IMG/VR virus record: IMGVR_UViG_3300021963_008670
Coordinates: 1 to 36,409 of that record
From: a virus
Length of the DNA stretch: 36,409 nt
Strand: one strand, 5' to 3'
Below, piece by piece: positions 5,314 through 22,040 of the stretch. The notes under the pieces are model-generated. The model saw only the letters and a list, made by a program, of their open reading frames with translations, was not told the origin of the DNA and made no database searches. A program made the translations under genes and the position numbers. Numbering within the stretch: the first letter of the stretch is position 1; each line of letters starts with the position of its first letter.

Positions 5314-5866
5314 CCTAGTAAAAACAAAAGCCCACAGGGTTTTGGGCATAGACGCATCTACAAATTCAATTGCCTTTTGCCTTATGGAAAATGATAAGCC
5401 ATTAAAGTGGGGGAAGATAGACCTTAAAGGCATTGACATTTTTGAAAAGATCTATGACGCTAAAGTTAAAACTCATGCAATGCTAGAAGAATTAAAGAGT
5501 GATTATATTGTTGTAGAGGGCGCAATACTTGTCAGATCACCCGATGCTGTGATAAAATTGTCTTATGTCTATGGAGTTGTTATTGCTGAGCTTATGTCTA
5601 CTGGTGCTAAGGTTATTACTATTGGCCCATCCTCGTGGCAGGCGTACATTGGCAACAAGAATCCGACAAAAGATGAGAAGTCTGCAATAAGATTAGCAAA
5701 CCCAGGATATGCGGAATCTTGGTATAAGAATCAATTGCGTAATATGCGTAAGCAAAGAACCGTCGATTACTTTAATAGTAAGTATAGTTTAGAATTAAAT
5801 GATTTTGATGTTGCAGATGCATTCGGCATTGCACACTATTCAAACCAAGTTTTAACGGAAAGATAA
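5300..5866 (+). CDS. RuvC-like Holliday junction resolvase (RNase H fold)
   Basis: A 188-residue protein with the acidic residues of RuvC-type resolvases in order: GIDAST (Asp18), VVEGA (Glu73), and NDFDVADAFGIA near the C-terminus (Asp170 and Asp173). KVITIGPSSWQAYIG resembles the RuvC P-x-x-W-K segment. The ATG at 5300 has AAGGA about 6 nt upstream and is preferred to the TTG one codon earlier. Would resolve branched replication or recombination intermediates before packaging. An Hjc-like candidate is also present upstream, so two resolvases may coexist. Confidence 0.85.
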   Translation: MTLASLVKTKAHRVLGIDASTNSIAFCLMENDKPLKWGKIDLKGIDIFEKIYDAKVKTHAMLEELKSDYIVVEGAILVRSPDAVIKLSYVYGVVIAELMSTGAKVITIGPSSWQAYIGNKNPTKDEKSAIRLANPGYAESWYKNQLRNMRKQRTVDYFNSKYSLELNDFDVADAFGIAHYSNQVLTER

Positions 5867-6717
5867 TGATACCTAAAATAATTTTTCAGACATATGGATG
5901 CGACTATTCAGAGCTACCCTCATACATTAAAAATTGTACTGAAACTTGGAAAGAAAAAAATCCAGAATTTGAATATGTTTATATGAGTGAAAAACAATGT
6001 AGTGATTTTATTTTAGAAAACTATGGTCAAAGGCATGCAGATATATACAATGGGCTAAAGCACAAGGCAATGAAGGGTGACTGGTGGAGATATCTAATAG
6101 TAAATAAACTTGGCGGGGTTTATATGGATATAGACACGGTATGCAGGAAACCAATCCTAAGCGAGCTAGATCTGGAATATGATTTCTTAACTTGCCTAGA
6201 TTTTGTTTCTGATGCATTATTTACTCAATGGGGCTTTGCTTCATCTGCAAATAGTCCTATATTAAATCATCTTATTGATCATGTTTTAGAAAATTATGAA
6301 AACTTCCCATCTAATAAAAGCATCATTAAGACAGATTTAACTGGTCCAACTGCTTTTCATAACTCTATAAAGTCGTTATTGGGAGATCCTGTTTTTCAAT
6401 TATCTAAAGTTGTAGAGCCAAAAACAATTGAAGACAAAGACTTTGCAATAACAAACCAGACGTCGCTTGAAGATTCAATACTAATTTTTAATCAAAGTGA
6501 CTCTGTTACAAAAAATAAATTTAAATTGTATTTTTGGACATTTAATAATGCAGCAAGACATTTTACTGCATCCTGGAGATGGTCAGACAATACAATTAAT
6601 CAAAGTATGCTTAATGAAACAATAGGACATAATTGTAAAAATATAAGTTATGAGTATGCAGATATAAAAATTAAATTAAAAAACAAATCTTACAGCTCTT
6701 TCGGGGGGGATAAATAA
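5866..6717 (+). CDS. glycosyltransferase, OCH1/GT32-like (DXD sugar-binding)
   Basis: A 283-residue glycosyltransferase. It opens with IPKIIFQTYG, the usual start of the DXD sugar-binding family, then KGDWWRYLIVNKLGGVYMDIDT, where the DID is the metal/nucleotide-sugar DXD motif. The C-terminal part includes WTFNNAARHFTASWRW, with a conserved-looking His and Trp. It overlaps both neighbours by one base (TAATG). It sits apart from the later sugar cassette, inside the recombination operon. The acceptor (virion protein, host glycan or modified DNA) is unknown. Confidence 0.85.
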   Translation: MIPKIIFQTYGCDYSELPSYIKNCTETWKEKNPEFEYVYMSEKQCSDFILENYGQRHADIYNGLKHKAMKGDWWRYLIVNKLGGVYMDIDTVCRKPILSELDLEYDFLTCLDFVSDALFTQWGFASSANSPILNHLIDHVLENYENFPSNKSIIKTDLTGPTAFHNSIKSLLGDPVFQLSKVVEPKTIEDKDFAITNQTSLEDSILIFNQSDSVTKNKFKLYFWTFNNAARHFTASWRWSDNTINQSMLNETIGHNCKNISYEYADIKIKLKNKSYSSFGGDK

Positions 6718-7557: not shown

Positions 7558-8094
7558 ATGAATGAAATAGAGCCAGCAGTACATTTTGACCGCATGAATA
7601 AGGTGGTTGAAGAACTGCTTAAGGGCAATAGCCCAACACAAATAGCAAACTCCACTGGATTTAAAAGGGCAGAGGTTGTAGAGCTTATTGATGAATGGAA
7701 AGAAGTAGTCCATAACGATGTAAGCCTTAGGGGTAGAGCTAAAGAGGCTATATCAGGTGCAGATCAACACTACGCAATGCTTATTAAAGAGGCATGGAAA
7801 ACCGTAGAAGATGCAGATACCCAAGGACAACTTAATGTAAAAGCGGGTGCATTAAAATTAATTGCAGATATTGAGACTAAAAGAATAACAATGTTGCAAG
7901 CAGTTGGTGTTTTAGAAAGCAACGAGATAGCATCTCAAATTGCAGAGACCGAAAGAAAGCAAGAAATTTTAGTTGGAATTTTAAAAGAAGTGACAGCTGG
8001 ATGCCCAAAATGTAAACTAGATGTTGCTAAAAGGCTTTCTCAAATAACAGGAATTGTTGAGTCCGTAGTTATAGAGGATGCCGATGTCGTTTGA
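7558..8094 (+). CDS. terS: small terminase subunit (putative)
   Basis: A 178-residue protein immediately before the large terminase and overlapping it by 17 nt. The N-terminus holds a helix-turn-helix (SPTQIANSTGFKRAEVVELI), as expected for a DNA-recognising small terminase. A long helical middle (QLNVKAGALKLIADIETKRITMLQAVG) resembles the oligomerisation core, and GCPKCKLDVAKRL near the C-terminus may bind metal. The call comes from gene order and architecture, since small terminases diverge quickly. First gene of a new transcription unit. Confidence 0.75.
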   Translation: MNEIEPAVHFDRMNKVVEELLKGNSPTQIANSTGFKRAEVVELIDEWKEVVHNDVSLRGRAKEAISGADQHYAMLIKEAWKTVEDADTQGQLNVKAGALKLIADIETKRITMLQAVGVLESNEIASQIAETERKQEILVGILKEVTAGCPKCKLDVAKRLSQITGIVESVVIEDADVV

Positions 8095-9883
8095 GTTTGG
8101 AGATCTCATCGATCTTCTTGACGGAGAAGAGTTTGATGAGAAGCCAGTACAGTTAGAAGAGTTTGTTACTAGCCCAAGGTACCTTGCATTGCCTCCATTA
8201 TCAGAACTTCAATATTTATTAATTGAAAAAAGTTCACAAATATATAAAGAAACAACTCTTATAAAATTATTTGGAGAAGAACGTGGTAAAGAAATTGCTA
8301 AACAAACTGCTACTGAAGTTATAGCCCAACTAGGTAAGGGTTCTGGAAAAGATTATTGCTCTACTATTGCAGTTGCCTATATAGTGTATTTACTATTATG
8401 CTTAAAGGATCCAGCAACATATTATGGCAAGCCTCCTGGAGATGCAATAGATATTATTAATATTGCAATTAACTCTCAGCAGGCAAATAACGTTTTCTTC
8501 AAGGGATTTAAAACAAGAATCGATAAGTCTCCTTGGTTCGCAGGAAAGTATGAAGCCAAGGCTTCTGAAATGAAATTTGATAAAGCTATTACAGTGCACT
8601 CTGGTCACTCAGAACGTGAAGCATGGGAAGGATATAACGTTATTGTTGTTATCCTAGATGAGATATCAGGATTCGCAATTGAAAATACAACTGGCCACGA
8701 TCAAGCAAAGACTGCTGATGCCATATACGACATGTACCGTGCATCTGTAGACTCACGATTCCCAGACTTTGGTAAAGTAATTCTTCTTTCTTTCCCACGA
8801 TTTAAAAACGACCCGATACAAAAATTTTATGAGTCCGTAATTGCAGAAAAAGAAATAATAATTAGATCAGAAACTTTAAAGATGGATGAGGATTTACCAG
8901 ACGGAACAGAAGGCAATGAAGTTACTGTTGAATGGGAAGAGGACCACATCAAATCTTACTTAATACCGAAGGTCTTTGCCTTAAAGAGACCAACCTGGGA
9001 AGTAAATCCTACAAGAAGCATTGAGGATTTTAAAACAGCCTTCTACAAAAATAGCATGGACGCACTAGGAAGATTTGCCTGCATGCCACCAGAAATGATT
9101 GATGCATTTTTTAAGTCCAGAGAAAAAGTTGAAAAAGCTTTTAACAATACTGGAATAGCAGTTGATAAATTTGGAAGACTTGAAGAGTGGTTTAAACCAG
9201 ATCCAGAAAAAAAATATTTTATTCACGTTGACTTAGCACAAAAACATGACCACTGTGCAGTTGCAATGGCACATGTAAACAAGTGGGTTAACGTAAGGGT
9301 AACAGACAACTACTCACAGCTAGCGCCTATCGTAGAGGTTGATGCAGTAAGATATTGGACACCAACTGCAGACAAGTCTGTTGACTTTACTGAAGTAAAA
9401 GATTATATTTTATTGTTAAAAACACGAGGATTTAATATAAGCGTGTGTACTTTTGACAGATGGAATTCTCATGATATGATGCAACAACTAAAACAATATG
9501 GCATCAATACAGAAATTCTATCTGTCGCCAAAAAACATTATGACGATATGGCTATGGTTGTTCTAGAAGAAAGACTTTCTGGACCGCACATACCGTTGCT
9601 TATTGATGAATTATTACAGCTTAAAATAATGAGAGATAAGGTTGATCACCCAAGAAAGGGGTCAAAGGATTTAGCAGACGCAGTTTGCGGTTCTATATTT
9701 AATTCTATTAGTAGAACTAGGCCAGATAATAATTCTGAAATAAATATTCATACTTATGAATCAATGAGTTATGATAATGATTTTTCTAAAGATAGCACAG
9801 ACGTTTCTGCTATGAATATGATTAGACCCCCAAGAATGCCAGATAGGTTGTCGGAAGCAATAGAAAATATGGAGATAATATGA
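8078..9883 (+). CDS. terL: terminase large subunit
   Basis: A 601-residue DNA packaging motor. The ATPase part has Walker A as GKGSGKD (residues 86-92, with Asp in place of Ser/Thr, as in a number of phage terminases) and Walker B VIVVILDE (Asp194-Glu195). The RNase H-like nuclease part has YFIHVDLAQKHD (Asp385), a CTFDRW strand near residue 460 and KDLADAV near 545, giving the acidic cluster. Length is normal for the family. A second ATG two codons downstream is an equally possible start. Confidence 0.93.
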   Translation: MPMSFEFGDLIDLLDGEEFDEKPVQLEEFVTSPRYLALPPLSELQYLLIEKSSQIYKETTLIKLFGEERGKEIAKQTATEVIAQLGKGSGKDYCSTIAVAYIVYLLLCLKDPATYYGKPPGDAIDIINIAINSQQANNVFFKGFKTRIDKSPWFAGKYEAKASEMKFDKAITVHSGHSEREAWEGYNVIVVILDEISGFAIENTTGHDQAKTADAIYDMYRASVDSRFPDFGKVILLSFPRFKNDPIQKFYESVIAEKEIIIRSETLKMDEDLPDGTEGNEVTVEWEEDHIKSYLIPKVFALKRPTWEVNPTRSIEDFKTAFYKNSMDALGRFACMPPEMIDAFFKSREKVEKAFNNTGIAVDKFGRLEEWFKPDPEKKYFIHVDLAQKHDHCAVAMAHVNKWVNVRVTDNYSQLAPIVEVDAVRYWTPTADKSVDFTEVKDYILLLKTRGFNISVCTFDRWNSHDMMQQLKQYGINTEILSVAKKHYDDMAMVVLEERLSGPHIPLLIDELLQLKIMRDKVDHPRKGSKDLADAVCGSIFNSISRTRPDNNSEINIHTYESMSYDNDFSKDSTDVSAMNMIRPPRMPDRLSEAIENMEII

Positions 9884-10119
9884 GCGAGTACCAAGAAAAA
9901 GCAAAAGAGTGTAAGTGCTGCGGAAAGCATGTTCCTCTACCAACTGTAATGAAAGAGCTAAATGGCACCGTGCTTTGCCCGACCACATTTGCAAATGTAA
10001 TGGAGTATAAAAGAATATGGTCTGTTATTGGGAAACGCCCATCTGGATCTATTAGAAAACATTTTTCTGAATACGTTCAGTCTATAGTAGAAGATGAAAA
10101 CCAAATTGGAAATAAATAG
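9880..10119 (+). CDS. small Cys-containing phage protein
   Basis: A 79-residue protein overlapping terL by 4 nt (ATGA). CKCCGKHVPLP forms a C-x-C-C-x2-H knuckle, with a single later Cys (TVLCPTTF) that could complete a metal site. The rest is basic and probably helical. Unknown function; its place after terL suggests a packaging or early head role. Confidence 0.65.
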   Translation: MSEYQEKAKECKCCGKHVPLPTVMKELNGTVLCPTTFANVMEYKRIWSVIGKRPSGSIRKHFSEYVQSIVEDENQIGNK

Positions 10120-11098
10120 ACATTTATTTTTTAACGACCTTAGTAAAGAAAATTACGGATTCACACATACGCTTGGGAAATCGGGACACCCAAATGATTA
10201 TATAAGTTATAAATTTAATTCTCTCGGATATAGGTGTAAAGAATTTAAAACAAATGAGGAAATGCTTATTGCTGGCTGCTCACAAACTTTTGGAATGGGA
10301 ATAGAAAAAGAATACATATGGGGAAATTCTGTAGGCAGATACTTTAATTTAAACCCAGCTAACCTATCAGTTCCAGGATCTTCTACTTCATCAATAATAA
10401 ATAACCTGTTTGCCTACTTTAAAAGATTTGGAAACCCTAAGGTCCTTATTTGCCTATTCCCAGAAATGACAAGGTTTCAAATACCAGTAAATCAAAAATA
10501 TGTGTCTTCAGATCAAATTGATAGATCTTTAAAAAATAGCAATAGCTTTCCATTTCTAAGCTACCTTTATATAAAAAATTATTTAAATGACGACAGGCCC
10601 TCTTATCAAAAAGCTCCGTTTCGTTTGGAAGAGATATTGACAGAAGATGTTCCATTTTTTCACAACATGAAAAGCATAATGATGCTAGATCAATATTGCA
10701 ATTCTAATAATATTAAATTTTATTGGTCTGTATGGGATACAAACCTAGACTATGAGCTAACAAAATTTGCAAAGAGCGGAGACGATCAATATTTAAACTA
10801 CGTACCATTTGAAGGATTTAGATGGTCTGTTACACAAAATTTTGAGGAAGACCCATTTGGAGTAAAAGCAAATATAATAAAATCTCAAAACTACCATAAT
10901 GGATACGGGGTAGCTTGTAGTAATTGTATGAATAGCAAACCGTGTGAAGAAATTATATTATGCCATAAAGAATTAGAGCAGGAGTGTCCAAAATTTTTTG
11001 AAATTGGAAATGATAAAGTCCATTTAGGGGCACACCAACACCAACACTTTGCAGAAATTATTATTGAAAGGATGTTGTTAGATGAAGTTACTTTTTAA
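10094..11098 (+). CDS. SGNH/GDSL-like protein, copy 1
   Basis: A 334-residue protein resembling SGNH hydrolases: AGCSQTFGMGI puts Ser63 in the block I position, VPGSSTSSI fits block II, and a D-x-x-H (Asp307, His310) opens the His-rich block HLGAHQHQHFAE. The middle CLFPEMTRF is shared with the second copy at 12736 (FAYFK-[RE]-FG, FPE). Family members remove or transfer acyl groups on glycans or lipids. With the adjacent carbamoyltransferase it may decorate a sugar polymer. CNSNNI and Cys-rich SNCMNSKPC are extras missing from the paralogue. It overlaps the upstream gene by 26 nt. Confidence 0.6.
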   Translation: MKTKLEINRHLFFNDLSKENYGFTHTLGKSGHPNDYISYKFNSLGYRCKEFKTNEEMLIAGCSQTFGMGIEKEYIWGNSVGRYFNLNPANLSVPGSSTSSIINNLFAYFKRFGNPKVLICLFPEMTRFQIPVNQKYVSSDQIDRSLKNSNSFPFLSYLYIKNYLNDDRPSYQKAPFRLEEILTEDVPFFHNMKSIMMLDQYCNSNNIKFYWSVWDTNLDYELTKFAKSGDDQYLNYVPFEGFRWSVTQNFEEDPFGVKANIIKSQNYHNGYGVACSNCMNSKPCEEIILCHKELEQECPKFFEIGNDKVHLGAHQHQHFAEIIIERMLLDEVTF

Positions 11099-11180
11099 TA
11101 TATTGTATATTATAGAAAAAATAAAAAGAAAAATTAATTCAAAAAAATATAAAGGAAGAGACAATAGGTTTATATACTAA
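11082..11180 (+). CDS. 32-residue basic peptide
   Basis: A small ORF beginning with KLLFNILYII and continuing into a lysine/arginine-rich tail (EKIKRKINSKKYKGRDNRF). It overlaps the preceding gene by 17 nt and shares the A of TAATG with the carbamoyltransferase start, so it fills an otherwise empty 80-nt gap with coupled reading frames. It may serve mainly for translational coupling. No function recognised. Confidence 0.45.
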   Translation: MKLLFNILYIIEKIKRKINSKKYKGRDNRFIY

Positions 11181-12673
11181 TGATTATATTAGGAGTAAAT
11201 GAGACATCTCACGATGCATCCGTTTCTTTAATTAAAGACGGAGAGATATTGTTTGCGGGACATTCTGAAAGATATAGTAAGATAAAGAATGATTGGTATA
11301 TCAATGATAGTTTAGTTAATGATGCTTTACAATACGGTGCACCTGATGCTATAGCCTACTACGAGAAACCCTCTCTAAAGGCCTCTAGACTGCTTTTAAA
11401 GGGTGGTCTAGGAGACTGGAAGCCTAGGTTCGAGATACAAGGCATACCAAGAAAATCATTTAAGCACCACTATTCTCATGCCTGTGCTGGATATTATACT
11501 AGCCCATTTACAGATGCCGCAATTGTTGTTTTGGATTCAATTGGAGAATATAATACATCCACTGTCTGGATCGGTGAAGGGGAAAAAATAAAATTAAAAT
11601 ACAAACAAAACTACCCAGTCAGCTTTGGACTATTCTATTCTGCTTTTACAGAACTTATAGGGCTTAAACCAAACGAAGAAGAATATATCCTAATGGGAAT
11701 GGCTGGGTACGGAGATTGGACTAGATACTACAAAGAAGTAGATAAATATTTCCCAAATTATTACACTCAGTTATATAATTTTCATAAAGGGATAACAGAT
11801 TTTAATTGGGGTCAGGTGCCATGTTTTGCTGGTCAAGAAGGAACTGGATACATAGGGGAATGGCTTGATCAAAGGAAGTATGATCTTGCAGCAGCAGTTC
11901 AGTTTGTTTATGAACAAAGGTTGCTTGAGTTTATGCAGATGGCAAAGCTAACTACAGGCAAAAGCAACCTTGTATTTATGGGAGGCTGTGCATTAAATAG
12001 CAAGGCCAACACATTACTTTGGAAAGTATTTAAAGATATTTGGATTATGCCAAACCCAGGCGACGCTGGAAGTTCTTTGGGTGCAGCAGCTGCATTATAC
12101 GGTAAACATATTGAGTGGAAAAATCCTTACTTAGGCTATAATCTTGGAGGAGAATACCCCGTAAGTCAAATCGTTACTGGTCTAATTAGAGACAAAATTG
12201 TTGCCGTTGCAAGTGGCAGGGCTGAATACGGTCCAAGGGCTTTAGGTAACAGATCAATTCTGGCAGACCCAAGAGATCCTAATATTAAGGATAAAGTTAA
12301 CTTGATTAAGAAGCGTGAACTGTTTAGACCGTTTGCTCCTGTAGTTTTAGAAGAACATGCACACAAATGGTTTAAGATGGACTTTGCAAGTCCTTACATG
12401 CAATACACTGTTGAGTGCTTGCAACCAGACAAGATTCCTGCTGTGGTTCATGCAGACGGTACTTCAAGGGTACAGACTGTAAATAAAGAACAGCACCCAG
12501 GACTATATGAAGTACTATCAAACTGGTATGCCATGACAGGTGTGCCAATCCTATTAAATACAAGTTTAAATATAAAAGGACAACCATTAATAAATGATGA
12601 GCAGGATGTCCTTGACTGGCAGGCTCATTATAGTTATAATATACTAACTGGCAACAATAGCTTAGTTGGTTAA
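11180..12673 (+). CDS. carbamoyltransferase, NodU/CmcH family
   Basis: A 497-residue enzyme expected to transfer carbamoyl from carbamoyl phosphate, through carbamoyl-adenylate, to a hydroxyl. The N-terminal Kae1-like part has LGVNETSHDASVSLI (His11, Asp12), HHYSHACAGYYTSPF and IVVLDSIGEY; MGGCALNSKANT marks the nucleotide site. The C-terminal domain has GRAEYGPRALGNRSILADPR and LNTSLNIKGQP, both diagnostic. It is slightly shorter than typical members (about 550-600). The last eight codons and the stop lie inside a tRNA gene. The target could be a surface sugar, an antibiotic-like molecule or a DNA base; the surrounding sugar genes favour a glycan. Confidence 0.92.
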   Translation: MIILGVNETSHDASVSLIKDGEILFAGHSERYSKIKNDWYINDSLVNDALQYGAPDAIAYYEKPSLKASRLLLKGGLGDWKPRFEIQGIPRKSFKHHYSHACAGYYTSPFTDAAIVVLDSIGEYNTSTVWIGEGEKIKLKYKQNYPVSFGLFYSAFTELIGLKPNEEEYILMGMAGYGDWTRYYKEVDKYFPNYYTQLYNFHKGITDFNWGQVPCFAGQEGTGYIGEWLDQRKYDLAAAVQFVYEQRLLEFMQMAKLTTGKSNLVFMGGCALNSKANTLLWKVFKDIWIMPNPGDAGSSLGAAAALYGKHIEWKNPYLGYNLGGEYPVSQIVTGLIRDKIVAVASGRAEYGPRALGNRSILADPRDPNIKDKVNLIKKRELFRPFAPVVLEEHAHKWFKMDFASPYMQYTVECLQPDKIPAVVHADGTSRVQTVNKEQHPGLYEVLSNWYAMTGVPILLNTSLNIKGQPLINDEQDVLDWQAHYSYNILTGNNSLVG

Positions 12674-12724
12674 AGCCCCGAACTCATAATTCGGTAATCG
12701 TAGGTTCAAGTCCTACTTGTTGCA
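12651..12724 (+). tRNA. tRNA with CAT anticodon (elongator Met or Ile2)
   Basis: A complete cloverleaf. Acceptor GCAACAA/TTGTTGC, D-stem GCTT/AAGC, anticodon stem CCGAA/TTCGG with loop CTCATAA, T-stem GTAGG/CCTAC with loop TTCAAGT, discriminator A. The G1-C72 pair argues against an initiator tRNA. CAT could also be a lysidine-modified Ile2. CCA is not encoded. The first 23 bases overlap the end of the carbamoyltransferase gene. Confidence 0.92.
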
Positions 12725-12735
12725 CTGGAGGTAAT

Positions 12736-13701
12736 ATGTTTAACTTACACATGAATAACAATGAGAGTTTTTTAGACTCATTTTTATATGGGCCTAGCAA
12801 ATATTTTAACCTTTCAGAATACAATAAGCATTTGATATACACAAATAATTTAATTGAAGATTCTTCAGTCGATCACTCATTTGCAGATAATGGAATAGAA
12901 TATACTTTAAATAAAAAAAACTATAGGTCTCCAGAATTTGTTAAGGGCACCGACATACTTTTTGCTGGGTGCTCTTTAACATGGGGAGCAGGAGTTCCAG
13001 AAAAAAATATTTGGTCTAGCGTTGTTGCAAAAAATTTAAACTTTTCGTATGCCAATGTTGCTTTATCTGGAGACTCTGTATATGGTCAAGTAAAAAGAAT
13101 ATTTGCTTATTTTAAAGAGTTTGGACACCCTAAATATTTATACGCATTATTTCCAGAATTTTATAGAATGCCTATTATAGTTAATAAAAAGCTTTTTATA
13201 ACAAGTGCTAAAATAGATCCCTCTGATCCAAACCTAATGCAAAATGGATTTATACCAGGAAATATTGAAAAAGATTTTAAGGTAGCAATAAGGCCATTTA
13301 TTGCAGAACAGGTTTTAAGTCCAGAATTTCCACACTTCCTTTCTGCACAAAGCCTCAACATGCTTGAGGCTTATTGCGAGGTAGCTGGAATTAAATTTGC
13401 ATGGTCTACCTGGGATCAAAAACAATTTTTAGTTCTAAAACAATTAAAGGGAGAAAATTATAAAACTTTAGTTGATATAGAAATGCAAAATTGGTCTATA
13501 GATTATGATACTATTGAAGATAGCTATCTAAAGGATGGGCAAAGGGTGTTATGCCACGAAGAGCTTAGGTCTTCTGGACCTAAATATTTTGATCTTGGAA
13601 GCGATAGCAACTACGGAATTAGAAATGCACACTGGGGTTCACATAGACATCAACATGTTGCAGAAATTGCAACATCTTATTTAAAGGATTGGATTAAATA
13701 A
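12736..13701 (+). CDS. SGNH/GDSL-like protein, copy 2
   Basis: A 321-residue paralogue of the protein at 10094. Shared segments: FAGCSLTWGAGVPEKNIW (Ser80 as putative nucleophile), RIFAYFKEFGHPKYL, LFPEFYRMPI and the C-terminal HWGSHRHQHVAE. The residue that would be Asp in a canonical D-x-x-H is Arg here (RNAH), so either the His-rich block differs in function or this copy is altered catalytically. GGAGG lies 5 nt before the ATG, an ideal ribosome binding site just after the tRNA. Probably acts on the same glycan as copy 1. Confidence 0.6.
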   Translation: MFNLHMNNNESFLDSFLYGPSKYFNLSEYNKHLIYTNNLIEDSSVDHSFADNGIEYTLNKKNYRSPEFVKGTDILFAGCSLTWGAGVPEKNIWSSVVAKNLNFSYANVALSGDSVYGQVKRIFAYFKEFGHPKYLYALFPEFYRMPIIVNKKLFITSAKIDPSDPNLMQNGFIPGNIEKDFKVAIRPFIAEQVLSPEFPHFLSAQSLNMLEAYCEVAGIKFAWSTWDQKQFLVLKQLKGENYKTLVDIEMQNWSIDYDTIEDSYLKDGQRVLCHEELRSSGPKYFDLGSDSNYGIRNAHWGSHRHQHVAEIATSYLKDWIK

Positions 13702-13982
13702 TGGACGAAGTGTTTGAATACTATCTTGAAATAGGAGCTATTGAAATTTCTGGAGTAGATAAAGACGGAGAAATTTTATTTTCTGTTACTGAAAAAGCAA
13801 AAGATCTTGCCCCAGAGTTGTGGCAATCTCATCAAGAGCATGTTGATACTACACTATTAGATCTTTATGAAAAGGGTCTTATAGAAGTAGAGTATAATGA
13901 AAACCTAGAGGCAGAAATAAAATTAAGTGAGGCTGGAATTGAAGCTTCAAAAGAATATGGCTTAAGGTTTTTAGGAGAATAG
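13701..13982 (+). CDS. small protein, possible winged-helix fold
   Basis: A 93-residue acidic protein. The pattern GEILFSVTEKAKDLAPELWQSHQEHVDTTLLDLYEKGLIEVEYNENLEAEIKLSEAGIEAS resembles a short winged helix (helices followed by a beta hairpin and LSEAG helix), a layout common in phage proteins of unknown role. It overlaps the SGNH copy 2 stop by one base (TAATG). Not clearly part of the sugar pathway. Confidence 0.65.
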   Translation: MDEVFEYYLEIGAIEISGVDKDGEILFSVTEKAKDLAPELWQSHQEHVDTTLLDLYEKGLIEVEYNENLEAEIKLSEAGIEASKEYGLRFLGE

Positions 13983-13988
13983 ATATAG

Positions 13989-13994
13989 TATAAT
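13989..13994 (+). promoter_or_regulatory. -10 box upstream of the nucleotidyltransferase gene
   Basis: A perfect TATAAT within GATATAGTATAATGAG, just after the stop of the preceding gene. It lies 4 nt before an 11-codon mini-ORF and 32 nt before the nucleotidyltransferase ATG. No convincing -35 is present. Confidence 0.5.
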
Positions 13995-13998
13995 GAGT

Positions 13999-14034
13999 AT
14001 GAGTAAATTAAAAGAATTGGTAAATAATGATTAA
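13999..14034 (+). CDS. possible 11-codon leader mini-ORF
   Basis: ATG followed by SKLKELVNND and a stop that overlaps the downstream ATG at 14027. It lies 4 nt after a TATAAT box, so it would be the first codon of a near-leaderless transcript and could couple translation to the next gene. Short enough to be chance. Confidence 0.3.
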   Translation: MSKLKELVNND

Positions 14035-15121
14035 TATAGTTATACCATTAGCTGGTGAAGGAACTAGATTTCTTTCTACTGGAATTAAAACCCCTAAGCC
14101 ATTAATTGTTGTTAACGGAAAAACAATGATCGAGCACTCCGTGGAGACGCTTGGAATTAAAGGCCAGTATATTTTTATTACAAAAGAATACAAAAATGAT
14201 GCATATAATGTTGAGCTGTCTTCTATTATTAAAAGAATTCAACCCGATGCAATCGAAATAAAAGTAGATAAAAAACAACGTGGTGCTGCAGATGCAGTAA
14301 TGTATGCAAAAAAATATATAAACAATAAAGACCCTCTTATTACAATTAATTGTGATCAAATATTAAACTGGGATCATGAAGAATTTATTGATTATATTAA
14401 AGAAACAAATTGCGACGGCTCAGTAGTTCTATTTAATGCCAACGATCCAAAGCATAGCTATGCTGAAGTTGTTGATAATAAGATAATCAAAATTGTAGAA
14501 AAAGAAGTTATATCTAATGATGCACTCATAGGAGTACATTATTGGAAACACGGGTCAGACTTTGTTGATTCTGCAGAAGAGCTTTTAAATACAGATAGCA
14601 CAAGCGAGGTTTATATTTCTCAAACGTACTCCTATATGCTAAAAAACAATAAGCAAATATCTCCATTTTATATACCAAACAACAACTATATTAATTTAGG
14701 AACCCCTGAAGATGTTGCTATTTATTTAGGTAAGGTTAAAGAATTTTATACCGACAAGCCTAAGACTATATTTTGCGATATTGATGGAACAATAATAAAG
14801 CACCTTCATAAATTCAGCGACCTTGGTAAATTTGAAGTAGAGATTTTGCCAGGAGTAATTAATAAATTTAATGAATGGGATTCTAAAGGATATAAAATAA
14901 TTTTAACTACTGCTAGAAAAGAATCGGCTAGAGGCATAACAGAAAAACATTTAAACGGACTTGGGCTTTGCTGGGACCTTTTAATAATGGGGGTTACAAG
15001 TGGGCAAAGAGTCCTTATTAATGATAAATTAAACGATAAGGATCCAGATAGAGCTACTGCTATTAACTTAATTACTAATGATGGATTTAATTCAACGTAC
15101 TGGGAAGAGCACGGACTATGA
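14027..15121 (+). CDS. sugar nucleotidyltransferase fused to HAD phosphatase
   Basis: A 364-residue two-domain protein. Residues about 1-235 are a nucleotidyltransferase of the GT-A type: PLAGEGTRF (G-x-G-T-R NTP loop), TPKPLIVVNGKTMIEHS, and INCDQILNW with the metal Asp. From about 243, IFCDIDGTII is the D-x-D-G-T motif I of HAD phosphatases, followed by ILTTARKES (motif II) and VLINDKLNDKDPDRA (motif IV region). Such pairs make and process activated sugars (a sugar phosphate is dephosphorylated or an NDP-sugar formed) for surface polysaccharides. It overlaps the cupin gene by 4 nt. The actual sugar is not predictable. Confidence 0.88.
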   Translation: MINIVIPLAGEGTRFLSTGIKTPKPLIVVNGKTMIEHSVETLGIKGQYIFITKEYKNDAYNVELSSIIKRIQPDAIEIKVDKKQRGAADAVMYAKKYINNKDPLITINCDQILNWDHEEFIDYIKETNCDGSVVLFNANDPKHSYAEVVDNKIIKIVEKEVISNDALIGVHYWKHGSDFVDSAEELLNTDSTSEVYISQTYSYMLKNNKQISPFYIPNNNYINLGTPEDVAIYLGKVKEFYTDKPKTIFCDIDGTIIKHLHKFSDLGKFEVEILPGVINKFNEWDSKGYKIILTTARKESARGITEKHLNGLGLCWDLLIMGVTSGQRVLINDKLNDKDPDRATAINLITNDGFNSTYWEEHGL

Positions 15122-15447
15122 AGCTTTCAAGAATAGAAGATACAATCGGAGGCTGGTTTGTAGGAAATTTTGATAAGGCGGCTTACAGAACAGATGCATG
15201 CGAAGTTTCTTATAAATATCATCATAAGGGAGAACATTGGCCAACACACTATCAAGAAAAAATTATAGAGATTAATCTAATGGTGCGAGGACAAATGAAA
15301 ATGCAGGACAAGATACTTCTGTCTGGAGATATTTTTATAATCTATCCATATGAAATAGCAGATCCAGAATTCCTTACCGATTGCGAAGTTGTTTGTGTTA
15401 AGGTTCCTGGAATTACAAACGACAAGGTTACGGTACAAAAAATATGA
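15118..15447 (+). CDS. cupin-fold small protein
   Basis: A 109-residue single-domain beta-barrel. HWPTHYQEKIIEINLMVRGQMKM corresponds to cupin motif 1 (His residues and a Glu before the G-x-M turn), and LLSGDIFIIYPYEIADPEF to motif 2, with the usual P but Glu in place of the final His. It overlaps both neighbours by 4 nt. Could be a sugar isomerase/epimerase-like or sugar-binding factor acting with the nucleotidyltransferase. Confidence 0.7.
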   Translation: MKLSRIEDTIGGWFVGNFDKAAYRTDACEVSYKYHHKGEHWPTHYQEKIIEINLMVRGQMKMQDKILLSGDIFIIYPYEIADPEFLTDCEVVCVKVPGITNDKVTVQKI

Positions 15448-15905
15448 AAATGATAGCGCATAGAGGTAATACAGATGGGCCTAATCCGCAAATGGAAAAC
15501 GATCCAGAGTATGTTATGGATGCAATAAACAATGGCTACGATGTAGAAGTAGACTTATGGTCAACAGACACAGAACTTTTTTTAGGACATGACGAACCAA
15601 AGTATAAAATAGATAAAGAGTTTTTAGAAACATATAAAGACAAATTATGGATACACTGTAAAAACTTAGAGGCCCTTTACGTTTGTGAATTTATATTAAA
15701 CGAAGTTCATTATTTTTGGCACCAATCAGATGATTTTACATTAACAAGCAACAATATTTTTTGGACATTTCCAGGCAAAGGCTTGACCCCTAATTCTGTT
15801 TTAGTGATGCCAGAGATTGAAAATTTTATTCATGTAGGTCCAGATATATATGGAATATGCACAGATGAAATTGAAAAGGTTAAGGATATGCTAAATGGAA
15901 TTTAA
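15444..15905 (+). CDS. minimal GDPD-like phosphodiesterase
   Basis: A 153-residue protein with the landmarks of glycerophosphodiester phosphodiesterases in a shortened barrel: IAHRGN (catalytic His), PQMENDPE (the E-N-T/D metal residue), YDVEVDLW (E-x-D metal pair) and FLGHDEP (second catalytic His). Typical GDPDs have 240 or more residues, so the later beta/alpha units are reduced. Small GDPD-like proteins are known in polysaccharide loci and may act on phosphodiester-linked substituents. It overlaps the next gene by 11 nt. Confidence 0.7.
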   Translation: MKMIAHRGNTDGPNPQMENDPEYVMDAINNGYDVEVDLWSTDTELFLGHDEPKYKIDKEFLETYKDKLWIHCKNLEALYVCEFILNEVHYFWHQSDDFTLTSNNIFWTFPGKGLTPNSVLVMPEIENFIHVGPDIYGICTDEIEKVKDMLNGI

Positions 15906-17016
15906 AAAAGGTTCGTGGTCTGTTGAAAAAATAGAAGAAATTGACGCTACAGACTCAATTGGGAAAATATTTAAGCTTTCTGGCGTAAAGTACACAAATA
16001 ACCCAAATGAGGAAACCATTCATTATCCTGGTAAAACGTTTATGGGGACAGCAACTCTTTATATTTGGCATTATCTTTATGAAACTATAGCTCAATTTGA
16101 ATATTTAAAGACACAGATACCTGACCTTAACATGGTAATGTTTTCAGAAACAGGACATACCGATATAACAATAGAAGAATTTTTAAATGCAATGAAAGAA
16201 CAAAACTTTTATAATAAAAAGGGAGTAAATTATTTCCCAGAACCACATAAGTATTTTGAAGACACATTTAAAGTTTATGTAAATCAAAAGTATATTAATA
16301 ACTTTAGAACAACAAACGTTTCGTTTGATGAAATATATTTTACCTTTGATCAAAAAAAAGCATTTGTTGATATAATGCAAAAAGGGATAGGAAAGTTTTG
16401 GTTTGGATTACCACACGCATATTGGATAAAGCCCAACTTCGAAACTTTTACAAAAAACACTAGAGATTATTTTTACGAAATATGGTGGAGAGATTTAGGC
16501 CTAATGTGTATGAGAAACACCTGGCTTAAAGAACTTAAAAATGATGAGTCTACAACCCCTAAAAAAATCCTTATATCTAGAAAAGATGCAAACCTGAGGT
16601 ATAAAGAAAATACAATTGATGCAATTCTCCCATTGCACGATAGGCTAATTGATGAAGACCTAAACAATATGGTGGAGGATTATTTCGTAGCTAATGGCTA
16701 CACCTCAATAACATTAGAAGGAATGGGATACCTGGAGCAGCTTAGATACTTCAAGAATGCAGAGAGTATAGTTGCAATTATAGGATCTGGACTCTGCCAA
16801 ACTTTTATTTGCGATCATGATGTTAATGTTACAGAAATTTTATTAAATAAAAGGTATAACTTTTCATACGAGTTTATTGCAGAAAACGTAGGGTTTAAGC
16901 TTTGCAGATTAGACTTAAGAAAATTTTCAGAAGATAAAGAAAAAGTTCAAAATTCTTTAGAAGCACACCTGGGGTATTTAAAAAGCTTAGAGGCTTTAAA
17001 AAATGATAAATTTTAA
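15895..17016 (+). CDS. GT61-family glycosyltransferase, copy 1
   Basis: A 373-residue protein with the C-terminal signature of DUF563/GT61: KKILISRKDANLRYKEN, VEDYFVANGYTSITLEGMGYLEQLRYFKNAESIVAIIGSGLCQTFIC. The G-S-G-L and the E-Q helix are typical. The N-terminal half contains a family-like HYLYETIAQFEYL segment. The second GT61 gene follows with a 14-nt overlap, so the two probably build sequential linkages on the same glycan. Acceptor and donor are not predictable. Confidence 0.85.
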   Translation: MEFKKGSWSVEKIEEIDATDSIGKIFKLSGVKYTNNPNEETIHYPGKTFMGTATLYIWHYLYETIAQFEYLKTQIPDLNMVMFSETGHTDITIEEFLNAMKEQNFYNKKGVNYFPEPHKYFEDTFKVYVNQKYINNFRTTNVSFDEIYFTFDQKKAFVDIMQKGIGKFWFGLPHAYWIKPNFETFTKNTRDYFYEIWWRDLGLMCMRNTWLKELKNDESTTPKKILISRKDANLRYKENTIDAILPLHDRLIDEDLNNMVEDYFVANGYTSITLEGMGYLEQLRYFKNAESIVAIIGSGLCQTFICDHDVNVTEILLNKRYNFSYEFIAENVGFKLCRLDLRKFSEDKEKVQNSLEAHLGYLKSLEALKNDKF

Positions 17017-18022
17017 CAACATCAATGCTATAGATATTTTCCCAGTAAACTCCTCCTCTTTTTGCATGCGTGTTCCAAATGCTAAATTTAAATCAATTTC
17101 CGTTACAATGAGAGATCAAACCTCATACTGCAATGTTTATCCAGAAGAATATAAAGAAGGACTAGAGCCAAATATGCACAGAGATGTTTTTGTTGTACCT
17201 TACATTGAAAAATACTACCATAACTTTTTAGAGATATTCCCTAAAATATTATTTTTAAAAACAGTTAATCCATTTTTTAAATTAATAATTGTAACAAGTA
17301 AAGAGCAAGACATCAACCCGCTAACAAAAATATTTTATTCCTGGGAAAAAGATTTTACAGATTTAGATCATAATTTAAGTAACGTAAAAGATTTCTTAGA
17401 AATGTCCGAAATAGATTATCTTTGCACATCGACAGATTCAGTATTTTTAAAAGAAATGATTGCTCAGTCAGCCTACATATTCTTTGATTTTAAAAAATAC
17501 ATTGGGGACAAGAGGCCTAATTCCTACCCAAAAAACTATAACTTTCCAAACTCATATCCATTTCATCCAACAACTGCCCAAACGGCAGAGTCTTTGTTCC
17601 CATATTTAGATATAATGAGAGGAATACATAGAGATGAATTACATGGAGATAAAAAAATATACGTTTCCAGAAAAAATTTTCCAGAAAGAAAACTTGAAAA
17701 CGAAGAAAACCTAGAAAAGTTTTTATTGGATAGCGGCTATGAAATAGTATATTTTGAAAACATGTCTATCCTTGATCAAATAAAGATTGTTAAAGAGTCT
17801 AAAGAAATAATATTATTAAACGGATCTTCTGGAGTTAATTGCATGTTAGCTAACCCAGGTACAAAGGTGTGGGTTTTTAATAATAATGCAGACATTGTAG
17901 GTATTTACGAAAAGGCATCTTTAGAGTATAATATAGAATACAACTTTATAGAAATGCCAAACAATGATGCAGAGTGGGTCATTGATTATATAAAATCAAA
18001 TAATATAGTTAAGCCTTTGTAG
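17003..18022 (+). CDS. GT61-family glycosyltransferase, copy 2
   Basis: A 339-residue paralogue of the preceding gene: KKIYVSRKNFPERKLENEE, LLDSGYEIVYFENMSILDQIKIVKESKEIILLNGSSGVNCML. The N-terminal YIEKYYHNFLEIFPKILFL matches the acceptor-side H-N/H-W motif of GT61. Its TAG stop at 18020-18022 lies inside the acceptor and position-8 bases of the following Arg tRNA, a 10-nt overlap. Last gene of the sugar cassette. Confidence 0.85.
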   Translation: MINFNNINAIDIFPVNSSSFCMRVPNAKFKSISVTMRDQTSYCNVYPEEYKEGLEPNMHRDVFVVPYIEKYYHNFLEIFPKILFLKTVNPFFKLIIVTSKEQDINPLTKIFYSWEKDFTDLDHNLSNVKDFLEMSEIDYLCTSTDSVFLKEMIAQSAYIFFDFKKYIGDKRPNSYPKNYNFPNSYPFHPTTAQTAESLFPYLDIMRGIHRDELHGDKKIYVSRKNFPERKLENEENLEKFLLDSGYEIVYFENMSILDQIKIVKESKEIILLNGSSGVNCMLANPGTKVWVFNNNADIVGIYEKASLEYNIEYNFIEMPNNDAEWVIDYIKSNNIVKPL

Positions 18023-18085
18023 CTCAGAGGACAGAGCAGGACTCTTCTAAGGTCTTGGTCGCAGGTTCGACTCCTGCCAAGGGCA
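18013..18085 (+). tRNA. tRNA-Arg (TCT anticodon)
   Basis: Acceptor GCCTTTG/CAAGGGC (one G-U), D-stem GCTC/GAGC, anticodon stem GGACT/GGTCT with loop CTTCTAA, T-stem GCAGG/CCTGC with loop TTCGACT, discriminator A. It reads AGA, a dominant Arg codon of these genes and likely rare in many actinobacteria. It overlaps the stop of the upstream GT61 gene. CCA not encoded. Confidence 0.93.
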
Positions 18086-18089
18086 CAAA

Positions 18090-18162
18090 GCCCTTATAGC
18101 CCAGTGGTAGAGGCACACGACTTAAAATTGTGAAAGCGTTGGTTCGAATCCAACTAGGGGTA
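18090..18162 (+). tRNA. tRNA with TAA anticodon (Leu) but short variable loop
   Basis: Acceptor GCCCTTA/TAGGGGT (first pair G-U), D-stem GCC/GGC, anticodon stem CACGA/TTGTG with loop CTTAAAA, T-stem GTTGG/CCAAC with loop TTCGAAT, discriminator A. The anticodon reads UUA (Leu), very frequent in this genome. The variable region is only AAAGC (5 nt), whereas bacterial tRNA-Leu normally has a long class II variable arm. Confidence 0.85.
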
Positions 18163-18166
18163 CTAA

Positions 18167-18239
18167 TGGAGATTAGCTCAGCAGGCAGAGCGGGAAGCTG
18201 TTAACTTCTAGGTCATAGGTTCGAATCCTATATCTCCAG
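18167..18239 (+). tRNA. tRNA-Asn (GTT anticodon)
   Basis: Acceptor TGGAGAT/ATCTCCA, D-stem GCTC/GAGC, anticodon stem GGAAG/CTTCT with loop CTGTTAA, T-stem ATAGG/CCTAT with loop TTCGAAT, discriminator G, as usual for Asn tRNAs. It ends a three-tRNA cluster spaced by 4 nt each. CCA not encoded. Confidence 0.93.
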
Positions 18240-18245
18240 CAAATG

Positions 18246-18818
18246 TTAGGGCATAAAATAGCCAGGATGCGGTATTAAGCAATCCATATAGGCGTATCTT
18301 GTACCAGAAGTAACTTCAAGTGTCTCATGAGAATATTGTTTGTCTACTTTAAATATTAATAGATCGTTTTCTTCAGGCTTAAATTTAAAATTAAGTTCTG
18401 GGAAATTGATTTCCCCACCTTTAAAGTCACCAATATATAAAGCAATTTTGTAATATGCAATTGGATTTTCATTTATATACAACGACATATTGTTATCTAT
18501 AGAAGATGATTGCCCAGCCTTTAATCTAACAAAGTTTGCATGCTGGTACATCCAATAGTTAGGCGCAAAAAAATTAAAAATAGGGTCGTGAAGAGTGTTG
18601 TCTATTACATCTAGACTACATTTATCCCCCCAAAAGCTTTCTTCGTGATCCCCTATTTCAAAATTGCCGTGTTGATGCCAATCTTCTTCTATAAAACCAT
18701 TCAATTTTGTTTTGTAAATTTCTAATAAATCAAGATCTAAAAAATTTTTGTATAAAAATATATCATCGTGTATTTCAATAACCTTAGGATCTTCTTTAAA
18801 TCTAATTGGTAGTATCAT
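18246..18818 (-). CDS. 2OG-Fe(II) oxygenase-fold protein lacking the first iron His
   Basis: A 190-residue prolyl-4-hydroxylase-like double-stranded beta-helix protein. DFKGGEINFPELNFKFKP, YSHETLEV (distal His164) and SGTRYAY (Arg174, 2-oxoglutarate anchor) are all present. Where the H-x-D motif should be, the sequence is SIDNN: Ser106 replaces the His and Asp108 remains. The other three oxygenases in this window keep HCD, HHD or HMD at that place. It may bind metal weakly or be a non-catalytic partner of the neighbouring oxygenase. It has its own RBS (AAGGAAT) and is co-transcribed with the gene at 18831-19559. Confidence 0.8.
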   Translation of the reverse strand: MILPIRFKEDPKVIEIHDDIFLYKNFLDLDLLEIYKTKLNGFIEEDWHQHGNFEIGDHEESFWGDKCSLDVIDNTLHDPIFNFFAPNYWMYQHANFVRLKAGQSSSIDNNMSLYINENPIAYYKIALYIGDFKGGEINFPELNFKFKPEENDLLIFKVDKQYSHETLEVTSGTRYAYMDCLIPHPGYFMP

Positions 18819-18830
18819 TTTTATTCCTTA

Positions 18831-19559
18831 TTACTGTGGAGTCCAGGAGGGGCCCTGGAGCCATTTATCTACAGACTCTTCAGATCTATCTACAACATTT
18901 TCAACGTACTCTTTGCTCTTATAATTATAAAATGTTCCAGGGGCGTCCGAAGTTTTTGTTGCAAAACAAGAAAAAGCATATCTTACTCCAGAAGTTACTG
19001 GTTTAGTTGCGTGATAATAGGGAGCCTCTGACCCATGAATTACTACATCTCCAGGCTCTGGCTTATACACTAATTCTCCAGGAGCGCCTTCAATATCAGC
19101 ATTAGGCTTTAAGGTTCCATCTTCAAAAAATGCTGGATAATATACTTCTCCGCCTTCAAATTCTGATAAATATGTAACAACACCAAAATCAATTAGGCTA
19201 CATGTTCCGTAGGTGTCTTCTTGTGTAAGCATATGAGCCATGTCTTTTCCTGGGCTGTCACAATGTAAAAACATTCCTTCATGCCCAACTCTAGAAGTGA
19301 TTACCTGTGATTGAGGGTTAATAACATAGTCTGGATATAGCAACTCTGAAACATGCTCCCAAAGGTCTATAATTCCAGGGACGGGTGGACTCATTTTGTC
19401 ATCATACCAAGCTATCGCATTACCTTCTTCTTGGAAAGAGTCTTTATCGAATGTGTCTAATATACTTGAAAATCTATCACACATTTCTCTAGGAACATAG
19501 CCTTTAAATACGTATATCTTATCGGCTAGCTGAATACAATCGGGTCTATTATAGAACAT
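18831..19559 (-). CDS. 2OG-Fe(II) oxygenase (P4H-like)
   Basis: A 242-residue Fe(II)/2-oxoglutarate-dependent hydroxylase. Iron ligands His99-Cys-Asp101 (FLHCDSPG) and His183 (YYHATKP); Arg193 (SGVRYAF) binds 2-oxoglutarate. EFEGGEVYYP is the family strand pair. It is the first gene of a minus-strand two-gene unit with a -10 box 6 nt before its ATG, so probably leaderless. Family members hydroxylate Pro, Lys or small molecules. The target is unknown; the phage secreted and structural proteins are possible substrates. Confidence 0.9.
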   Translation of the reverse strand: MFYNRPDCIQLADKIYVFKGYVPREMCDRFSSILDTFDKDSFQEEGNAIAWYDDKMSPPVPGIIDLWEHVSELLYPDYVINPQSQVITSRVGHEGMFLHCDSPGKDMAHMLTQEDTYGTCSLIDFGVVTYLSEFEGGEVYYPAFFEDGTLKPNADIEGAPGELVYKPEPGDVVIHGSEAPYYHATKPVTSGVRYAFSCFATKTSDAPGTFYNYKSKEYVENVVDRSEESVDKWLQGPSWTPQ

Positions 19560-20202: not shown

Positions 20203-20455
20203 TTTTAATAGTAATCATAAATGGATTTTAAAACAAGACGGTTCAGTAAATTATAATTATTTAAATTATGAAGATCACAACGGACCATTTTGTAAAGACT
20301 GTAGAAGATTCTTTTGCATGGTTTGCGATGATATTTCTTCATTGCAATGCCCTGCTATTGATGACACTAATTTAAAAAAGAACATTGAAAGTTGGTCTCC
20401 AATCGGTGGAGAGCTAGCAAATAAAATAATCAACAGAAAAGGCCATGATGAATAA
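20171..20455 (+). CDS. small zinc-ribbon protein
   Basis: About 94 residues; the start is uncertain (ATG 20171 or GTG 20183, both inside the endolysin end). FCKDCRRFFCMVCDD contains two CxxC pairs, with a later Cys (LQCPAID), so a zinc site is likely. It overlaps the next gene by 11 nt. No known family recognised; it might regulate the lysis genes or bind nucleic acid. Confidence 0.6.
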   Translation: MLHQVQNLKNNFNSNHKWILKQDGSVNYNYLNYEDHNGPFCKDCRRFFCMVCDDISSLQCPAIDDTNLKKNIESWSPIGGELANKIINRKGHDE

Positions 20456-21056
20456 AAAGGAATTTGGACCAGATATTTGGGGGATTGAAGACTTCTTGTC
20501 TAAAGAAGAATTAGATAAGCTTGTAGAGTTAGCTGAATCAAAAACTCAAGAAGATTGGGAGTTTCAGTATAGCTTTGACATCGAGGAACATGCATCCCAA
20601 GATCATAAATTTAAAGCTGGCGACCCAGAATTTGATGAGGCTGTAAAGAAAAAGAATGTTTTTTGGAACGATAAGATGCTTGCAATACCATTTATGGATA
20701 TGAGGACATCTTTGACAAAAAGAACGTTAGACGCATTTGATAATCAATATAGAATAAATGAAATTGCAAGAATTCAAAGACAGTATCCTGGAACAGAGCT
20801 TAAGGTGCATCATGATCAGGGTTACGACATGACATTATTAAGGGCTGTTATTATTTATCTAAACGATGATTACGAAGGCGGGGAGTTATACTTTACCCAA
20901 CATGATTTAAAGTTGAAGCCTAAAGCTGGAACGCTGGTTAGTTTTCCTGGAACAGATAAATACTTACATGGAGTAGCAAACGTACTTCCTGGTAAAACAA
21001 GATACGTAATTAGCACATTCGCATTTGAAAAAGAAAGCGGATGGACGCAAAATTAA
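20445..21056 (+). CDS. 2OG-Fe(II) oxygenase (P4H-like)
   Basis: A 203-residue hydroxylase. Iron ligands His122-His-Asp124 (KVHHDQG) and His175 (YLHGV), 2-oxoglutarate Arg186 (KTRYVIST). DYEGGELYFTQHDLKLKPKAG is very like the strand at 31308-32027, which suggests duplication within this phage lineage. It sits between an endolysin-linked zinc protein and a homoserine-dehydrogenase-like protein. Substrate unknown. Confidence 0.9.
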   Translation: MMNKKEFGPDIWGIEDFLSKEELDKLVELAESKTQEDWEFQYSFDIEEHASQDHKFKAGDPEFDEAVKKKNVFWNDKMLAIPFMDMRTSLTKRTLDAFDNQYRINEIARIQRQYPGTELKVHHDQGYDMTLLRAVIIYLNDDYEGGELYFTQHDLKLKPKAGTLVSFPGTDKYLHGVANVLPGKTRYVISTFAFEKESGWTQN

Positions 21057-21552
21057 CATATCTATTATAGGTTACGGTCACATTGGGAAAGAAGTTGTGT
21101 CTGGAATAACAACATATAATCAAAGGAACAATGACAATAAGATTAATGTTGTAAATATTTTAGTTAAAGATAAACAAAAATATGGAGAAGTAGATCAGTC
21201 TTTTACAGAAAACCCAGATGATTTAATTAATAACATAAGTGATTTAGTTGTAGATTTATCTGGAGATACCACTAATTCTTTAGTTTATTTGCCCAGACTT
21301 ATGGAGTATAAAAAATCAATATTAATAGCTGACAAAATTCTTTTATCAGATTACGCAGAATTAATTTTTAGCAAGGCTAGAGAAAATAATGTTAGGGTAT
21401 TAATTGGATCATGCGTTTCTTCTAGTCTTCCAATTAATATATCAAAGAATAGTCCTTATTATGATGGAAGTGATTGTAAGGAAGTTCGGGGAAACGGATC
21501 AGCAGAAGTATCCTCTGCAATATTAGAAGATATATTTTATTTTTATTCATAA
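21025..21552 (+). CDS. homoserine-dehydrogenase-like Rossmann protein lacking the substrate domain
   Basis: A 175-residue protein. ISIIGYGHIGKEVV is the NAD(P)-binding G-x-G-x2-G loop; DLVVDLSGDTTNSLVYLPRLMEYKKSILIADKILLSDYAELIFSKARENNVRVLIGSCVSSSLPI follows homoserine dehydrogenase order (adenine-side strand, GK-x-VVTANK-like segment, E-A-S-V-x-x-x-x-P). It then jumps to EVRGNGSAEVSSAILEDI, which resembles the R-G-x-G-A-G-x-x-TA-x-AV-x-D segment near the end of the full enzyme. The catalytic domain usually inserted between them (about 150-200 residues) is absent. The start is probably TTG at 21025 (overlap 32 nt); no ATG fits. Confidence 0.7.
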   Translation: MKKKADGRKINISIIGYGHIGKEVVSGITTYNQRNNDNKINVVNILVKDKQKYGEVDQSFTENPDDLINNISDLVVDLSGDTTNSLVYLPRLMEYKKSILIADKILLSDYAELIFSKARENNVRVLIGSCVSSSLPINISKNSPYYDGSDCKEVRGNGSAEVSSAILEDIFYFYS

Positions 21553-21623: not shown

Positions 21624-22040
21624 ATGGTAACACAATTCGCAATGGATCTATTCAATGATCCTTTTTTTATTGGCTTTAACAGAGACCTAGCCCGTCTAAA
21701 TACTGCACACAAAATCAACTCTCAATCATATCCTCCGTATGATCTTCTTAAATTAGATGAAGACACATACAGGCTTTCGCTTGCTATTGCAGGGTTTACC
21801 AAGGAAGATATTAATGTTTCGGTAGACAATGGAACACTTATTATTAAGGGTGAAATTGTAGAAGTTACAGATGCAGAAATTGTTCACAAGGGTATTGCTG
21901 GTAGAAAGTTTGTCAGATCTTTTGCCTTAGGTGAGTATATGGAAGTATCTGGTGCAGAGCTAAAGGACGGCATGCTGCACATTAATGTGGATCGCATTGT
22001 TCCAGAAGAAAAAAAGCCTAAAACAATTAAAATCAAGTAA
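21624..22040 (+). CDS. Hsp20/alpha-crystallin small heat shock protein
   Basis: A 138-residue IbpA-like chaperone. The alpha-crystallin domain spans about residues 38-125: YPPYDLLKLDEDTYRLSLAIAGF (typical IbpA opening), KEDINVSVDNGTLIIKGE, and GIAGRKFVRSFALGEYMEVSGAELKDGMLHINVDR. The C-terminal anchor is reduced (KPKTIKIK contains an I-x-I-like I-K-I). Holds unfolding proteins; phage versions occur in several phage groups and may assist virion assembly. Controlled by its own promoter with a structured leader. Confidence 0.93.
   Translation: MVTQFAMDLFNDPFFIGFNRDLARLNTAHKINSQSYPPYDLLKLDEDTYRLSLAIAGFTKEDINVSVDNGTLIIKGEIVEVTDAEIVHKGIAGRKFVRSFALGEYMEVSGAELKDGMLHINVDRIVPEEKKPKTIKIK

Follow-up and report, generated by a model that had tools for sequence, protein, structure and literature searches.

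The eight-gene run at positions 10094 to 18022 of virus record IMGVR_UViG_3300021963_008670 (36,409 bases, a fragment of its genome; the whole stretch is here called the window) lies beside the terminase gene and is made up of putative glycan-modifying enzymes. The nearest described phage counterparts are the lipopolysaccharide (LPS) islands of cyanophages. LPS clusters near tRNAs, and carbamoyltransferases in several cyanophages, were described in 2010, when the function of the clusters was called unknown and possibly that of stuffer DNA (PMC3037559). The islands of S-SM2, Bellamy, S-CAM9 and DSL-LC03 (Kyanoviridae) share nucleotidyltransferase (NT) and glycerophosphodiester phosphodiesterase (GDPD) relatives with the window, those of S-SM2 and Bellamy hold cupin and GT61 relatives as well, and they lie near tRNAs, as the window's site does. 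However, they are much larger, carry epimerases, aldolases and heptose genes, and belong to T4-like phages of cyanobacteria; in the islands examined the carbamoyltransferase has no SGNH partner, unlike that of the window.

A bacterial parallel is found in Sulfuricurvum and other Campylobacterota, where O-antigen- or LPS-type loci hold GDPD, HAD, NT, cupin and NT genes together in one run between glycosyltransferases and dTDP-sugar genes. In these loci the NT and HAD proteins are unfused and the GDPD is longer, and no carbamoyltransferase, SGNH or GT61 gene was seen in the run. Because the NT, HAD, cupin and GDPD relatives stand side by side in these glycan loci, we tie this set to surface-glycan synthesis. 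Like the TobZ, NovN and GdmN O-carbamoyltransferases, the window carbamoyltransferase has the two Pfam domains and a GRxExGPRAL motif. With the MetaGPA enzyme acting on 5-hydroxymethylcytosine (5hmC; PMC8670742) it has the superfamily and the occurrence in phages in common, but no thymidylate-synthase-family partner is present in relatives of the window, and the C-N-T signature is missing from the window enzyme. The mycobacteriophages Che8 and Rita are actinophages as well. Work cited in PMC11256854 reports glycans on their capsid proteins, with glycosyltransferases encoded by the phages; the passages of that paper mention no carbamoyltransferase or NT-HAD module.

We propose that the window carries two exchangeable modules for glycan decoration in slots bounded by tRNAs, and hold with moderate confidence that a variable carbamoylated glycan on virions is their likeliest product. 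The original prediction had not recognised the combination as a described system. The exact eight-gene set was indeed not found in the literature searched; the same families do occur in annotated cyanophage glycan islands. Phage glycan gene sets are already known, and what is newly seen is the compact set with a fused NT-HAD protein and an SGNH-carbamoyltransferase pair, at a sharply bordered site in an actinophage.

Insertion slots and their contents

In related contigs the backbone of the site runs from TerL (terminase large subunit) through a small gene, tRNA-Met, a gene of 93 amino acids (aa) and tRNA-Arg, usually followed by a CHAP lysin. All of the corresponding window features lie on the + strand. 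TerL (8078 to 9883) is the conserved left border, and the small conserved gene right after it (9880 to 10119) is found in empty and filled sites. The tRNA-Met (12651 to 12725) separates slot A from slot M, the 93-aa gene (13701 to 13982), which occurs in empty sites and has no Pfam or NCBIfam match, separates slot M from slot B, and tRNA-Arg, tRNA-Leu and tRNA-Asn (18013 to 18240) form the right border of the insertions. Empty sites measure about 260 bases from TerL to tRNA-Met, about 100 on to the 93-aa gene and about 40 on to tRNA-Arg, distances seen in about 30 of 66 measurable related contigs; the three window spacings are 2771, 1050 and 4034 bases. SGNH1 and the carbamoyltransferase occupy slot A and SGNH2 occupies slot M; the genes for NT-HAD, cupin, GDPD and the two GT61 enzymes are in slot B.

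The cassette therefore adjoins the terminase gene and is inserted, as the original prediction had it, since about 30 relatives show the site empty. Its description as one eight-gene cassette has to be given up: tRNA-Met and the 93-aa gene break the run and tRNA-Arg, tRNA-Leu and tRNA-Asn close it, so that it is not one uninterrupted operon, and two blocks move independently into the slots. Some relatives have SGNH-SGNH-carbamoyltransferase in slot A and an empty slot B, in others GT61 genes or SGNH-SGNH-carbamoyltransferase occupy slot B, and still others have GT61-NT-HAD-cupin-GDPD-GT61 alone. The gene order of the window recurs in about 10 other contigs and hence is not a chance arrangement. 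Scans for promoters and terminators gave sites no more numerous than in shuffled sequences.

Many contigs are near-duplicates, and the slot counts accordingly overstate the number of independent events. Co-inheritance points in the same direction. Cupin and GDPD genes lie within 5 kb of NT-HAD in all 46 testable loci (viral contigs found with NT-HAD) and a GT61 gene is near it in 37 to 38 of them, but SGNH and carbamoyltransferase genes are near it in only 12. Conversely, the carbamoyltransferase is directly flanked by SGNH genes in 72 of 88 loci. By these counts (46/46, 12/46 and 72/88) each module behaves as a unit, and the window, like about ten of its relatives, combines the two. Among contigs retrieved by the terminase alone and with enough flank, 15 of 33 have at least one cassette family and 13 have the carbamoyltransferase. 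A profile search identified an SGNH-SGNH-carbamoyltransferase run, with two SGNH copies beside the carbamoyltransferase, in the marine single-cell virus AG-345-D19; a tblastn search of annotated phages with SGNH1 gave no match. Two large phages without WhiB (L218 and L221, records of 133 and 253 kb) carry NT-HAD, cupin and GDPD as parts of longer loci; genes of the thymidylate-synthase family are present in them too.

The original prediction had allowed for silent genes, which they do not appear to be. For L002/L003 and L182/L185, pairs that are not saturated, the ratio of nonsynonymous to synonymous substitution rates (dN/dS) of the cassette genes is 0.01 to 0.19, indicating purifying selection on every one of them; between the window and L002 it is 0.025 to 0.28, with dS close to or past saturation. 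Identity between the window and L002 is 87% for NT-HAD and 94% for cupin, about level with TerL (91%), and it falls to 46% for GT61a, 50% for SGNH1, 60% for SGNH2 and 63% for GT61b. Shared precursor enzymes with fast-changing transferases are a pattern known from surface-glycan loci, and by analogy this favours a role in glycan decoration. In addition, the carbamoyltransferase of L007 and L008 is 93% identical to that of the window, while the adjoining TerL is nearly identical (for L007, dS 0.32 and 0, respectively), and this difference points to recent exchange or replacement of the carbamoyltransferase allele.

The window also encodes DNA polymerase III alpha, RecA, a Cas4-like exonuclease and RuvC. 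Its TerL is 60 to 62% identical to terminases of Streptomyces phages, whose genomes measure about 128 kb and which include Gilson, a member of the Stanwilliamsviridae. A WhiB protein, taken as an actinophage marker in freshwater surveys (PMC6802176), is encoded in the window (8.7e-11) and found in 13 of 18 related records. Because of WhiB and the similarity of TerL, the host is very probably an actinobacterium. A megablast search with the region matched no annotated phage, and the analysis came across no cultured phage that has precisely this set of genes.

Assignment of the eight proteins

All eight open reading frames are present as predicted, on the + strand and without internal stops, and none of the proteins has a membrane segment. 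The carbamoyltransferase (11180 to 12673) is of the NodU/TobZ type and has both Carbam_trans domains, N (PF02543, 1.4e-39) and C (PF16861, 8e-56); its relatives in the PDB reach 1e-54, and solved relatives are NovN-type, GdmN and TobZ. It is NodU-like, yet scores far under the NCBIfam cut-off. NT-HAD (14027 to 15121), a fusion of a sugar-phosphate nucleotidyltransferase with a HAD phosphatase, matches PF00483 (4e-13) and HAD families, with a conserved nucleotidyltransferase signature and an intact DxDGT motif. Moderate likeness to several nucleotidyltransferases and weak likeness to heptose phosphatases indicate no single sugar. Both GT61 glycosyltransferases score above the PF04577 cut-off, GT61a (15895 to 17016) at 4.8e-7 and GT61b (17003 to 18022) at 4.8e-19. 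The small cupin (15118 to 15447) is assigned by homology: it matches phrog_24762 (6e-30), and a bacterial protein matched by its family in turn shows weak similarity to Cupin_2.

SGNH1 (10094 to 11098), SGNH2 (12736 to 13701; 33% identical to SGNH1 in alignment A5) and GDPD (15444 to 15905) have no Pfam match, and the structures of SGNH1 and GDPD were predicted with AlphaFold from alignments of their own relatives. The SGNH1 model (predicted local distance difference test, pLDDT, 84.9) matched GDSL/SGNH hydrolases with a Foldseek probability of 1.0 and with VIA Z scores of 11 to 14 (up to 13.9) over about 160 to 213 residues. Alignment A5 shows a conserved GCSxT serine (block I) and conserved Asp and His residues ahead of the last helix; the predicted fold and these three residues place SGNH1 in the SGNH/GDSL hydrolase superfamily. 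The GDPD model (153 aa, pLDDT 95.7) is a compact TIM barrel with very short helices that matched GDPD barrels from end to end, at Z about 11. Across 34 sequences HR, ExD and GHD show little or no variation. The modelled barrel and the HRG, ExD and HD catalytic residues support membership of the GDPD family. The labels SGNH-like and mini-GDPD agree with the modelled folds of SGNH1 and GDPD, but no clear block III Asn was seen in the SGNH family.

Predicted products and rival explanations

Most likely, a carbamoylated sugar is placed on virus particles or the host surface. From the protein families we infer the donor, the order of the steps, the acceptor and the action of both modules on one glycan. 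The second module (NT-HAD, cupin, GDPD and the GT61 pair) would work in the cytoplasm and yield an activated sugar or polyol phosphate, NT-HAD supplying the nucleotide-activated sugar or polyol and the GT61 enzymes transferring the activated sugar. The first module (SGNH, carbamoyltransferase, SGNH) would O-carbamoylate a free hydroxyl, likeliest on the glycan of the second, and the SGNH proteins may attach an acyl or carbamoyl ester, shift it or take it off. The likeliest acceptor would be a phage structural protein, giving virions with a variable carbamoylated glycan coat. Several points weigh against this. In 34 of the 46 NT-HAD loci no carbamoyltransferase is nearby, and modules that are usually found apart need not act on one molecule. 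The SGNH family has no clear block III oxyanion Asn, none being conserved near LFPxxxR in alignment A5. Finally, glycosyltransferases in the cytoplasm could draw on flippases and ligases of the host.

The last point bears on the strongest rival, that the modules alter host-surface glycans or lipid-linked precursors during infection and so block superinfection or the resorption of progeny. We consider this a possible but clearly less probable explanation. It fits the O-antigen-type loci that house the bacterial relatives, the proposal that phage glycosyltransferases change host wall glycans (PMC10202952) and the signal-like segments on other proteins of the window phage. However, a scan of the 114-kb relative G001, by hydropathy only, found no protein with at least three membrane segments, and so no flippase, polymerase, transporter, ligase, initiating transferase or other polytopic protein. 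The phage appears to encode no machinery for export or polymerisation, and any modification of the surface would have to rely on that of the host. With no membrane segments in the cassette and no polytopic protein in G001, modification in the cytoplasm is favoured over polymer export, and a phage-made exported polysaccharide or capsule is unlikely. The original prediction's comparison with a capsule or O-antigen locus consequently stands for the bacterial NT, cupin, HAD and GDPD relatives but not for a capsule made by the phage. The simplest explanation is that a phage protein is decorated in the cytoplasm; the feeding of host lipid-linked glycans is possible.

Hypermodification of phage DNA by the carbamoyltransferase and glycosyltransferases, also raised in the original prediction, is very improbable. 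It has a precedent in a phage carbamoyltransferase that makes 5-carbamoyloxymethylcytosine, but this enzyme uses 5hmC and co-occurs with a thymidylate-synthase-family gene, and carbamoyltransferases in unmodified contigs adjoin glycosyltransferases (PMC8670742). No PF00303 gene was found in the WhiB-bearing records searched, including those of 109 to 118 kb, whereas the T4 gp42 control was detected; the absence of a dCMP-hydroxymethylase- or thymidylate-synthase-type gene rests on these related, near-complete genomes, the window record being a fragment. Furthermore, the window carbamoyltransferase reads GRAEYGPRALGNRS, as in sugar and antibiotic enzymes, where the 5hmC enzyme reads GNMEFGPRALCNTT. 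At the positions of TobZ G421 and R423 the window has G-N-R, as in TobZ and novobiocin-type enzymes, against C-N-T in the one characterised 5hmC sequence, with positions matched by motif. On the missing PF00303 gene and the TobZ/NovN-type motif we rejected DNA modification as the principal explanation.

That the modules yield a small modified molecule or peptide instead of a glycan coat seems improbable to us. In the structure comparison SGNH1 matches CgnD best, a hydrolase from the gene cluster for the peptide crocagin; that cluster contains a carbamoyltransferase and a dioxygenase as well, and two 2-oxoglutarate (2OG) oxygenases follow the window cassette. But other GDSL enzymes score level with CgnD to within about 1 Z, neither a precursor peptide nor a peptide-binding protein was seen, and GT61 and NT-HAD suit glycan work better. 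The frequently empty slots might recall passive cargo or functionless stuffer DNA, as once suggested for the large cyanophage islands (PMC3037559). Purifying selection in the informative pairs, intact frames, kept catalytic motifs and the recurring gene order make this very unlikely, and we reject it on the selection data.

Neighbouring genes and significance

Four 2OG-Fe(II) oxygenases (PF13640) are encoded in the window, at 18246 to 18818 and 18831 to 19559 (both on the - strand, directly after the cassette and opposite to it) and at 20445 to 21056 and 31308 to 32027 (+ strand). Signal-peptide-like starts are found, all on the + strand, in a 901-aa Pro/Thr/Glu-repeat protein (22808 to 25513), a subtilase (28404 to 29351) and a 344-aa protein (30091 to 31125). 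These three have homologues in the 114-kb relative; it is unusual for a phage to export several proteins, and they could be glycan acceptors. An outside possibility is that the SGNH proteins, carbamoyltransferase, GT61 enzymes and adjacent 2OG oxygenases act together: side chains of a virion or secreted phage protein would be hydroxylated, then O-carbamoylated and glycosylated, and modules swapped slot by slot between phages would change surface identity.

A DXD sugar-transferase gene (PF04488, 5.5e-15; 5866 to 6717, + strand) lies between the RuvC and terminase genes, and L002 has a methyltransferase-like gene just ahead of its terminase genes. A homoserine-dehydrogenase-type NAD-binding domain stands on its own at 21025 to 21552, and further host-like genes encode HSP20 (21624 to 22040), thioredoxin (29547 to 29852) and S-adenosylmethionine decarboxylase (33923 to 34309).

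In summary, a group of actinophages that is widespread in fresh water has a defined cargo site at the terminase gene, delimited precisely by tRNAs and genes, at which modules for surface chemistry are exchanged. Should the products decorate virions, the site would provide a testable genetic basis for variable coats of abundant freshwater viruses and would be a case of phages using O-carbamoylated glycans.

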